Source of the DNA: Barnesiella sp. An22
Lineage (GTDB): Bacteria > Bacteroidota > Bacteroidia > Bacteroidales > Barnesiellaceae
Reading direction: 5' to 3'
Assembly: GCF_002159975.1 (NCBI RefSeq)
Contig: NZ_NFJR01000001.1
Span: forward strand, 62,001-126,000
DNA: 64,000 nt
Below the pieces are notes generated by a model. That model saw nothing but the letters and a program-made list of their open reading frames with translations, was not told where the DNA came from and ran no database searches. The stretch's first letter is position 1, and each line of letters begins with the position of its first letter. The translations under genes and the position numbers were made by a program. This document shows, piece by piece, positions 27,355 to 31,466 of this stretch.

Positions 27355-29601
27355 TTATCTCGGCGATACGATACGGTCGCCTATCTGCTTGGCCAACGCT
27401 GTTCTCACCCGGTTGAGCTCGACGTTCTGCTCGATGAGCTCGATTATCCGTTGCTCGTCCTTGTTGCGCGAGGCCTCTTTGATTTGCTCCTGTATCTGCT
27501 TGATCGACTGCTCGAGAATGGCGTTTTTCAGCTCGTAGATGGCCCGTGGAATAAGCTCCCACAGACGATCGGCCTCCAGTTCTACCTTCTGGAATTTGGT
27601 GTGTACTTTGCTGAGCTGGTATTTCTCGCTCACCAGGTCGACGGCAAGCATGCTGATCGAGGAGTCGGGATGGGTCGTGAAATAGCGTTCGAGAAAATTG
27701 GTTTCGAAGGTTTGCAACTCTTCTTCCATCTCGCGGGCGATACGTGTTTGAGCTTCGGCCTCTTTCCGTTGTTTGTCGGCAATATCGCCGCTTTCGAGGC
27801 GTATCTGTTCGATGGCTTCGTCGACCAGTTTTTGTTCCTTCACCTGCAGTTCGGTCCGCAAGGCGGCTACTTGTTGAGCTTCGTATTCCCGCTGTTCGGC
27901 TGTCAGTTCTACGATATGCTTGTACAGCGGATTGCACAGTTCGATATTGTCGATCGAGAGCTCTTCGACGATGTATTCCCACACCTTTTGCCACGACCCG
28001 TCGGGCAATTCGAACAGGTTGCGGTAGCCATAGCGCACGATATAGCGGATAATCTCCCGCTCGTATTTTTCGAGGGGCGATTGCTGTACCATCCGTTGCG
28101 ACAGCGTGTGGTCGGTGACGGGGACGGCTTCGGGTGTTTCGGCCGGTGCCGGCATATCGGCCAGCGAAGGGGGTGGGGGAGTTTCGTTGCCGTTGGCCGG
28201 TGCGGCGGTAGTTGTGTTTCCCGATTTCGGGGCGTTCGTCGTGGCGGCCGATTGCCTCTCCTGATTGTAGCGCTCGCGCGAGAACTGCTGTTCGGCCCGT
28301 TTCTGGCGGCGTTTATTCAGTTCCGACAGCAGTACCTGTTCGTCGATTTGCAACAGGCGGCTGCACTCTTGCACGTAGACCGAGCGGACAATGGCATCGG
28401 GAATGAGAGAGATGCTCTCGACGATATTCGAGATGATGTCAGCCCGTTTGATAGGGTCTTCGCCAGCATCTTCGAGCAGCAGTTGGGTCTTGAACCGAAT
28501 GAAATCGGTCTCGTGTCCCTTGATATAACGGGTGAACGACTCGGCACTCTGACTCTTGGAGAAAGAGTCGGGGTCTTCGCCGTCGGGCAGCAACACTACT
28601 TTGATGTTGAGCCCCTCCTGCAGCAGCAGGTCGATACCTCGCAACGAGGCTTTGATGCCCGGAGCATCGCCGTCGTAGAGCACCGTGATGTTGTCGGTGA
28701 AGCGGTGAATGAGTCGTATCTGTCCGTGGGTAAGTGCCGTACCCGACGAAGCTACGACATTTTCGATACCCGACTGGTGCATCGACAGCACGTCGGTATA
28801 CCCCTCGACCAGATAGCAGCGCCGCTCTTTCTCGATGGCCCGCTTGGCCTGGTAGATGCCGTAGAGCTCGTCGCTCTTGTGGTAAATATCCGATTCGGGG
28901 GAGTTGAAGTATTTGCTTATCTTCACCCCCGACTTCAAGATGCGTCCGCCAAAGGCGACCACCTTGCCCGATACGCTGTAGACCGGGAACATGACCCTGC
29001 CCGAAAAGAGGTCGTAGATGCGGCCTTCCTGTGTCTCGCGGCAGAGCCCCGTCTTGAGCAGATAGTCGATCTTATAGCCCCGTTTCTGGGCCTCCACGGC
29101 CAGGGCGTCGCGCTTTTCGGGCGAATATCCCAGCCCGAACTTGCGGATGATGTCTTCGTTGAAGCCCCGCTCCTTGAAATAGGCCAGACCCACCGAACGG
29201 CCTTCGTCGGTCTCGAGCAGCGACTTGCTGAAGAACTCTTGAGCGAAGGTGTTGATGACAAACATGTTTTCGCGTTCGCTCCGTTTCTGACGCTCTTCGT
29301 CGGTCAGCTCCTTCTCGTGAACCTCGATGTTGTATTTCTTGGCCAGGTATTTCAGCGCTTCGTAGTAGGAGAGCTGCTCGTGCTCCATGATGAAGTGTAT
29401 GGCGCTGCCCCCCTTGCCGCAACTGAAACATTTGCAAACCCCCTTCGACGGCGATACGCTGAACGAGGGCGACCGGTCGTCGTGAAACGGGCATAACCCC
29501 CAATAGTTGGCTCCGCGCCGGCGCAAGCTGACGAAGTCGGATACGACATCGACGATGTCGGTCGCGGCCATAATTTTATCGATGGTTGCCTGGTCTATCA
29601 T
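27355..29601 (-). CDS. dnaG: DNA primase
   Basis: The 748-residue protein makes RNA primers for replication. The CHC2-type zinc ribbon is C37-x2-H40 and C58-x2-C61. The RNA polymerase core includes the toprim motifs YLVEGYTD (~264) and LYDGDAPG (~314). A Pro/Ala/Thr-rich linker (~445-510) leads to a long helical C-terminal region (~530-748) for DnaB-helicase contact. It is longer than E. coli DnaG (581), as is usual in Bacteroidetes. The ATG at 29601 fits the conserved MIDQATIDKI start. A -7 box lies 79 bases upstream, implying a moderate 5' leader. Confidence 0.97.
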   Translation of the reverse strand: MIDQATIDKIMAATDIVDVVSDFVSLRRRGANYWGLCPFHDDRSPSFSVSPSKGVCKCFSCGKGGSAIHFIMEHEQLSYYEALKYLAKKYNIEVHEKELTDEERQKRSERENMFVINTFAQEFFSKSLLETDEGRSVGLAYFKERGFNEDIIRKFGLGYSPEKRDALAVEAQKRGYKIDYLLKTGLCRETQEGRIYDLFSGRVMFPVYSVSGKVVAFGGRILKSGVKISKYFNSPESDIYHKSDELYGIYQAKRAIEKERRCYLVEGYTDVLSMHQSGIENVVASSGTALTHGQIRLIHRFTDNITVLYDGDAPGIKASLRGIDLLLQEGLNIKVVLLPDGEDPDSFSKSQSAESFTRYIKGHETDFIRFKTQLLLEDAGEDPIKRADIISNIVESISLIPDAIVRSVYVQECSRLLQIDEQVLLSELNKRRQKRAEQQFSRERYNQERQSAATTNAPKSGNTTTAAPANGNETPPPPSLADMPAPAETPEAVPVTDHTLSQRMVQQSPLEKYEREIIRYIVRYGYRNLFELPDGSWQKVWEYIVEELSIDNIELCNPLYKHIVELTAEQREYEAQQVAALRTELQVKEQKLVDEAIEQIRLESGDIADKQRKEAEAQTRIAREMEEELQTFETNFLERYFTTHPDSSISMLAVDLVSEKYQLSKVHTKFQKVELEADRLWELIPRAIYELKNAILEQSIKQIQEQIKEASRNKDEQRIIELIEQNVELNRVRTALAKQIGDRIVSPR

Positions 29602-29779: not shown

Positions 29780-29811
29780 CTTGCCGTCGACTCGAAAAAT
29801 TCATACATTTG
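29780..29811 (+). promoter_or_regulatory. Promoter of the candidate small RNA
   Basis: A CTTG -33 box (29780-29783) and an exact TACATTTG -7 box (29804-29811) are spaced by 20 bp. Transcription would start near 29818. Confidence 0.62.
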
Positions 29812-29817
29812 CAATGT

Positions 29818-29884
29818 GTTTTTCATAGTATTAGATTTAAGGTTAATGAAGATTGGTTGTCGTGAGACAACCTTTCCTTTTTTA
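29818..29884 (+). ncRNA. Candidate short non-coding RNA (~65 nt)
   Basis: A complete promoter ends just upstream and a strong intrinsic terminator starts 37 bases into the predicted transcript. The terminator has a 7-bp perfect stem GGTTGTC/GACAACC (29855-29872) capped by a GNRA tetraloop (GTGA) and followed by TTTCCTTTTTT. The transcript would be about 65 nt and lie free between dnaG and a secreted-protein gene. No known RNA family is assigned. An alternative is a leader attenuator, but the next gene starts more than 300 bases later with its own promoter. Confidence 0.5.
29855..29884 (+). terminator. Intrinsic terminator of the candidate small RNA
   Basis: GGTTGTC-gtga-GACAACC followed by a U-rich tail; perfect seven-base stem with a GNRA loop. 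Confidence 0.75.
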
Positions 29885-30162
29885 AACCCCTCGCAAATTC
29901 TTCCATCCGGGGCTTTCCTTCTCTTTTCATACAAGTGTGGCAACTATCTGTTTTCGGGCCGGTAGATTGCATGGTCGGTACGATTTAGTTTGTTCGTTTC
30001 AGTTGTAAGCAGGTTTGTTTTATTTGTATTTTTCTGTTAAACAGATTGTTGTGGAAATATCATCTGCTTTGAGATTAAAATTTGCAGGGGTGTAATCATT
30101 TTCAAAATGAAATTTTTAATAGATTTTTATTAGAAAAATGACTTTATTTATCAAAATATTAT

Positions 30163-30170
30163 TACATTTG
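30163..30170 (+). promoter_or_regulatory. -7 promoter box for the gene at 30216
   Basis: TACATTTG is an exact TAnnTTTG match 45 bases before the start codon. The -33 region is only TTTA-like. Confidence 0.6.
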
Positions 30171-30215: not shown

Positions 30216-31466
30216 ATGAAAAAATTTACTTTTGTGTTGGCCGCTACGGCCTTGTGTGTAAATGTTGGCTTTGCCCAAACATTTGAACCGATGAATCGCT
30301 TGACTCCGGTTAAACAAGTAGCCCTCGAGAAGATTGAAAAGTCCTCGTTGAGCAGAACTTTACCGGGTACTGCTGAAACCAAATTTGATTTTATTAAGGA
30401 GAATCAAAAACGTATTGCCAAAAAACCGGCACAAGTTGCTGCTTTGACGGCACCTGAAGCTCTCCCTGCTACAAATGTAACACCTTCTTATTTTGTAGCT
30501 AACTGGAATGCTGTGTCGGGAGCTAATTATTACGAAGTAGATACATATAGAATATTTACTACGGCTGCCGATTCTGTTGAATATTGTGCTTTGTATGAAG
30601 ATTTCTATTTCGCAGAGGCAAGTGATGAGTCGATTACCAACTATCTTAATGGTAGTACCTACCGTTCTCAGTGGGTATTGATCGATGGTAAGTTGGGCGA
30701 TCAGTCTGTTATTCTCCCTGCCGCAGCTGCAGAGGGTTGCGAGTTGGATACTCCCCCGTTGGATTTGACGGCTGGTGGTGAAACCGGGAATATCCATTTC
30801 AGTCTCAGTCTAGAGGGTAATACCGGTGATAAGGTTTATATAGGGTATTATTATGATGAAAATGGTGAAAGCAAAGCTTATGCTTTGGGTGACCTGACTT
30901 TGGAAGATGGCGGGTTGAAAGGAAGTTATTCGGTTCCAGATCTTCCGTTGACTGAAGAATCGGGACTTTTCTTATATACGATGGCTTCGGAGAATACAGG
31001 TGATATAAAGGTTAATGAATTCGTTGTATCACAAACTCTTGCTCCCGGTCTTGAGTTTATGGCTTTCCATGATTATGCCACGACCACGGGTACATCGGTT
31101 CAGGTATTTACGATGGAGAGAGATGTAATGTCCGAAGGGGTAACTGATAATTTCTTCTATGGTGTATTTGCCTTGAATGTCAATATGGCCACCGGTCAAG
31201 TTACCGATGCTTCCAATATTTCAAATTTGATTGATGTAGATGGCCAAAGCGGTGTAGAAGGTGTACAAGTTAGCAACGACAAGATTTTCGTACACGACAA
31301 TCTGCACGTTGTTCTTGAGAAACCGGCTACAATTGCCGTCTACAACATGGCCGGTGTACTGGTTATGAGTGTCGAGGGTGTGGAAGGTGAGAACGAAATC
31401 GCCTTGCCCGCTGCCGGTGCCTATATTGTAAAAGCCGGTAACACGGTTGCCAAAGTGATGAAATAA
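30216..31466 (+). CDS. Secreted FN3/beta-sandwich protein with C-terminal sorting-like domain
   Basis: The 416-residue protein starts with a signal peptide (MKKFTFVLAATALCVNVGFAQ). After a short charged linker it shows an FN3-like half (PSYFVANWNAVSGANYYEV, ~95-113) and then a jelly-roll-like segment (ILPAAAAEGCELDTPPLDL onward) resembling choice-of-anchor or cleaved-adhesin domains. The tail ends NMAGVLVMSV...AGAYIVKAG...VAKVMK, like type IX sorting domains. Codons here are noticeably more A/T-rich than in neighbouring genes. It probably sits at the cell surface or is secreted, perhaps as an adhesin. It is monocistronic with a strong terminator. Confidence 0.82.
   Translation: MKKFTFVLAATALCVNVGFAQTFEPMNRLTPVKQVALEKIEKSSLSRTLPGTAETKFDFIKENQKRIAKKPAQVAALTAPEALPATNVTPSYFVANWNAVSGANYYEVDTYRIFTTAADSVEYCALYEDFYFAEASDESITNYLNGSTYRSQWVLIDGKLGDQSVILPAAAAEGCELDTPPLDLTAGGETGNIHFSLSLEGNTGDKVYIGYYYDENGESKAYALGDLTLEDGGLKGSYSVPDLPLTEESGLFLYTMASENTGDIKVNEFVVSQTLAPGLEFMAFHDYATTTGTSVQVFTMERDVMSEGVTDNFFYGVFALNVNMATGQVTDASNISNLIDVDGQSGVEGVQVSNDKIFVHDNLHVVLEKPATIAVYNMAGVLVMSVEGVEGENEIALPAAGAYIVKAGNTVAKVMK

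Follow-up and report, generated by a model that had tools for sequence, protein, structure and literature searches.

A FopS-family small RNA beside dnaG in Barnesiella sp. An22, with no RbpB over cut-off in the same genome

The locus and its family

The window analysed here is a 64-kb stretch of the genome of Barnesiella sp. An22 (3.35 Mb, 56 contigs, 99.68% complete), and the DnaG proteins nearest to its own (81-86%) are those of Barnesiella. Two divergent genes flank the element under study: dnaG (27355-29601, minus strand; Pfam and synteny), the neighbour conserved with it, and a gene for a 416-aa secreted protein (30216-31466, plus strand; ORF list and tail profile), whose T9SS-like tail scores 21.8 bits, just under the cut-off of 23. 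Between them, on the plus strand, a CTTG -33 element (29780-29783), one base off the consensus TTTG, is followed after 20 bases by an exact -7 element, TACATTTG (29804-29811; consensus TAnnTTTG). The latter was identified from the sequence and by orthologue comparison, and CTTG or TTG is retained at the -33 position in most dnaG-adjacent orthologues. Downstream lie a terminator hairpin with a perfect 7-bp stem and a GTGA (GNRA) loop (GGTTGTC-GTGA-GACAACC, 29855-29872, plus strand) and a U-rich tail, TTTCCTTTTTT (29873-29883, plus strand). The initial annotation had described this promoter, stem, loop and tail between divergent genes, and we found all of them where it placed them. It had also seen no good ORF in the transcript, which agrees with the absence of any plus-strand ORF of at least 50 aa inside it. 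The region contained three terminator-like sites compared to 0.4 in shuffles, and the fold z of the RNA was -2.06, which is weak by itself.

We then compared the window with Rfam 15. The sole match above cut-off in the whole 64 kb was RF04319 (BTncRNA_FopS) at 29816-29886 on the plus strand (76.7 bits versus a cut-off of 56, E = 1.7e-9 for the whole window, model positions 1-71 of 71). This is the kind of covariance search that the initial annotation had proposed, and its idea that the element encodes a small RNA standing alone, under its own promoter and terminator, is borne out by the full-length match to a curated, experimentally founded sRNA family and by five further copies in the genome. 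Its estimate of a ∼65-nt transcript with a 5′ end near 29818 needs a slight correction: the model starts at 29816, the G of GUGUUUUU, and with a predicted 3′ end at about 29883-29886 the length becomes ∼68-71 nt.

In B. thetaiotaomicron, FopS comprises 14 paralogous sRNAs of ∼65-70 nt, defined by northern blot as free small RNAs, and expression and induction by bile salts are among the family traits (PMC11697453, Ruttiger et al. 2025). The window RNA shares with the family the full-length model match over cut-off, a single-stranded R1′ seed region, GUGUUUUUCAUAGUAUUAGAUUUAAGGUUAA (29816-29846, plus strand; from the copy alignment, with the R1′ role taken from PMC11697453), a sigma-ABfr-type promoter, a single rho-independent terminator hairpin right after the seed, a predicted transcript length near ∼65-70 nt and the presence of several copies. 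Judged by its sequence, it is a genuine and well-conserved member of FopS, an already known family, with its function assigned by homology. From the family we infer that this copy is transcribed in strain An22. Several near-identical copies with a common seed are likewise found in LhrC, Qrr and OmrA/B of other phyla (named in PMC11697453), although these have no known homology to FopS and differ in their seeds and partner proteins.

Copies and conservation

Six FopS copies over cut-off are present in the genome, one of them adjacent to dnaG, compared to 12-15 in Bacteroides, and five or six were found in each of the nine Barnesiella genomes. We sorted the Barnesiella copies by sequence and upstream region into six classes (A-F), among which class A is the dnaG-adjacent one that includes the window copy, and class E carries a 5-nt insertion. 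Class A is present in all nine genomes, and the same site is found in the Barnesiella isolate An55. The copy adjoined dnaG in those Barnesiella loci that a DnaG search had retrieved, and likewise in one MAG further removed (L020, DnaG identity 56%). Among the Barnesiella copies of class A the first 31 nt do not vary, and the MAG copy departs from them at 2 positions; the -33 and -7 boxes are for the most part retained, in contrast to a diverged spacer and 3′ flank. The loop of class A in Barnesiella stays GNRA (GTGA, GAGA or GCGA). In the seed, nucleotides 4-11, 13-20 and 22-29 are invariant over 53 distinct copies drawn from several families, save for length variants around position 21.

The initial annotation had named compensatory changes in the stem as support, and these were found: four of the seven pairs are changed on both sides among FopS copies, with stem types GGTTGTC/GACAACC, GGCTGTC/GACAGCC, GGAGTCA/TGACTCC and GGAGTAC/GTACTCC. 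In the alignment 94.6% of the cells pair; five rows are one base off, and when stems are located directly every cell pairs. Covariation reached 0.244 compared to 0.138 in shuffles (none of 500 shuffles attained 0.244) and at most 0.123 in slid versions of the stem, where the rows are related and the counts thus represent non-independent events.

The published survey describes conservation of FopS within the Bacteroidaceae (PMC11697453), and the Barnesiella locus extends the family beyond them. FopS-like matches also occur in five phage records and 22 records of a plasmid collection, and the phage matches agree with the remark on phage occurrence in the FopS paper (PMC11697453). The match in Bacteroides phage BX-TP2 (L268, 44806-44852) covers 47 bases, consists of the FopS seed region only and lies where no gene is annotated. 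A further FopS-like element with a score under the cut-off (26.9 bits) lies at G000:C12:203364-203439 on the minus strand (locus L007). It reads TTTTTTCATAGTTAAGGTTTAGGTTAAAT and continues into a long hairpin capped by GAGA, and is possibly a diverged seventh relative.

Predicted mode of action, the missing RbpB and other readings

In B. thetaiotaomicron, the R1′ seed of FopS-10 pairs at the start region of the susC gene BT_3983 and halts translation in vitro; the block is lifted by RbpB, and seven more PUL polycistrons are bound in vitro (PMC11697453). By analogy with FopS-10, the most likely role of the window copy is repression of SusC-type and glycosidase mRNAs through pairing over their start codons. 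Sequence and family suggest the following course: transcription would begin at 29816 from the housekeeping sigma-ABfr promoter and end near 29884 at the GNRA hairpin and U tract. The unpaired 5′ end, UUUUUCAU(A/G)GUAUUAGAUUUAAGGUUAA, is the reverse complement of the start region UUAACCUUAAAUCUAAUAC(C/U)AUGAAAAA, so that the seed would pair over the AUG of mRNAs for SusC-type transporters and for glycosidases encoded as first genes, and ribosome entry would be blocked.

We searched the genome with a single pattern, the seed complement AATCTAATAC(C/T)ATGAAAAA with up to three mismatches. Besides the six FopS genes it matched eight sites, compared to two for the reversed control pattern, and four of the eight coincide with ORF starts. 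These are a susC start (C12:12884), the start of a GH13 susA-like gene 4.4 kb from it on the same strand (C12:17280), the start of a GH31-like glycosidase gene (C28:287; family judged by eye) and the start of a gene for a small secreted protein. These matches make the susA-like and susC starts of the one locus on C12 the leading candidate targets in this genome. Their predicted duplexes with the seed include the AUG and have energies of about -20 to -27 kcal/mol, in a model that leaves site accessibility aside. In the susA orthologue of genome G004, CTAATANTATGAAA is kept and TTAACC lies further upstream. The susA-like gene is absent (at E 1e-100) from four of the nine Barnesiella genomes and thus cannot be a general FopS target. 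Seed pairing was also stronger at 27 SusC-like starts (mean z -1.00) than at 91 other starts (mean z -0.48, p = 0.02), a modest difference that is supportive of such targets and falls short of proof: ATGAAAAA is the reading of many starts in general, some control starts also score well, the start codons come from a rule-based choice, and shuffled seeds are an incomplete control for the UUUUUCAU element. The gene at 30216 was considered as a special target and set aside, its 9-base match being common to many ATGAAAAA starts.

FopS of B. thetaiotaomicron associates with RbpB, an RRM-1 protein. In the 99.68%-complete An22 genome, neither an RRM_1 domain nor an RNA-binding regulator of family NF058537 was found over cut-off, and RbpB appears to be absent; the window FopS would act in its absence. 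Six of the nine Barnesiella genomes, An22 among them, have no RbpB-type match above the cut-off, and all nine carry five or six FopS copies. In the other three (G002, G003 and G006) the gene for an 81-aa RRM protein of the NF058537 type is flanked by two conserved genes, of 297 aa and ∼411 aa; the G003 protein scores 120.5 versus a cut-off of 100 bits. In G000, G001, G004, G005, G007 and G008 both neighbours of this slot were found and the RRM gene was not. Genome G008 has an RRM (G008:C1:906512-906739) that scores below the NF058537 cut-off and sits inside a 615-aa ORF, far longer than the 81-aa proteins of related genomes.

We extended the comparison to 295 Bacteroidales genomes, with FopS counted at E 1e-8 or better. 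FopS was present in 52 of them, and RRM_1 was absent from 23 of these 52. When only FopS genomes at least 98% complete were considered, 16 of 36, from eight families, lacked RRM_1. As FopS is kept in RRM-less genomes, its upkeep does not depend on a protein of the RRM type, although some unrelated RNA-binding protein could still serve. The missing RbpB does not decide membership in FopS, because the association was reported in one species and lies outside the Rfam definition. In several lineages FopS has outlived the loss of its reported partner protein, a result that goes beyond the FopS paper.

We next weighed other readings of the locus. The 5′ end of the window RNA is common to GibS and BTnc231, and it scores 42 bits with GibS (RF04182) and 34.5 bits with BTnc231 (RF04180), the latter having a related hairpin as well. 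However, these scores are far below the respective cut-offs of 115 and 80.4 whereas FopS exceeds its own, the BTnc231 model has 154 positions, and GibS, which shares the 5′ R1 seed, spans ∼142 positions, bears two seeds and is read from another promoter, PM2. The second hairpin and the R2 part of GibS are absent from the window RNA, and no GibS over cut-off exists anywhere in the genome, so that an assignment to either family is very improbable. A nitrite-responsive RNA described in a preprint is unrelated. The RNA might instead be the beginning of a longer message for 30216-31466, as its 5′ leader or attenuator, in which termination at the hairpin would be regulated: it lies on the same strand 330 bases upstream of 30216, and 9 bases at the start of that gene, GGTATGAAAAAATTT, are complementary to the seed. 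Yet the gene has its own exact -7-like TACATTTG at 30163-30170 on the plus strand, the RNA keeps its place beside dnaG in relatives, and paralogues of it occur elsewhere in the genome. The separate TACATTTG and the copies in unrelated contexts make a leader hardly credible, and the FopS family is defined by free RNAs.

A genuine FopS locus could also have become mainly a decoy or sponge, or a silent relic, instead of a repressor. Six near-identical seeds could be redundant, and RbpB is missing; but the seed, promoter boxes and terminator of the window copy are constant over the nine genomes and the more distant MAG. A relic would not show such constancy, and we regard this reading as unlikely. 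The best explanation, which we hold with high confidence, is a base-pairing FopS sRNA that would mask the start codons of SusC-type and glycosidase mRNAs and would do so here without RbpB.

A palindrome in FopS promoters

Upstream of many FopS copies we found a palindrome, ATGYTNNNNARCAK (the last base is C in a few), which is present in 42 of 92 distinct FopS upstream regions, a count that includes orthologues and is not one of independent cases. In 40 of the 42 it starts at -34 to -36 and spans near -35 to -22. The chance expectation for its presence is ∼0.0007 per region, and it is found at none of the 44 other TAnnTTTG sites in the window. Among the Barnesiella copies it belongs to classes B, C and E (a class C promoter reads ATGTTGTACAACAT), and genomes from five further families (f60, f61, f106, f20 and f3) also have it; the promoters that carry it near -35 include those of L001, L002, L005, L211-L219, L222, L225, L231-L234, L240 and L244. 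The window FopS promoter is without it. As the palindrome recurs at a fixed place across families and paralogues, a chance origin is unlikely. One ancestral promoter from which some copies lost it is possible.

The FopS paper postulates a regulator of unknown identity, and the palindrome is absent from its account (PMC11697453). By its sequence and position ATGYTNNNNARCAK is a candidate operator, a concrete one for the postulated regulator, and in this respect goes beyond that paper. Among its sites elsewhere in the An22 genome we saw neither an evident shared regulon nor a regulator gene under its own control. That ATGYTNNNNARCAK is the published PM2 motif seems less likely, as the published work gives PM2 to GibS and the canonical promoter to FopS. 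Taken further, FopS may be a start-codon-masking system that spans many Bacteroidales families and is able to work without RbpB, with one palindrome-binding regulator for a subset of copies and a plain housekeeping promoter for the others, the window copy included. We put this forward tentatively, at somewhat less than even odds. If true, FopS copies would differ in the timing of their synthesis and not in their pairing partners. Class D FopS promoters (L003, L144 and L146) carry another inverted repeat, GCATATAAAATTATATGC, between the -33 and -7 boxes.
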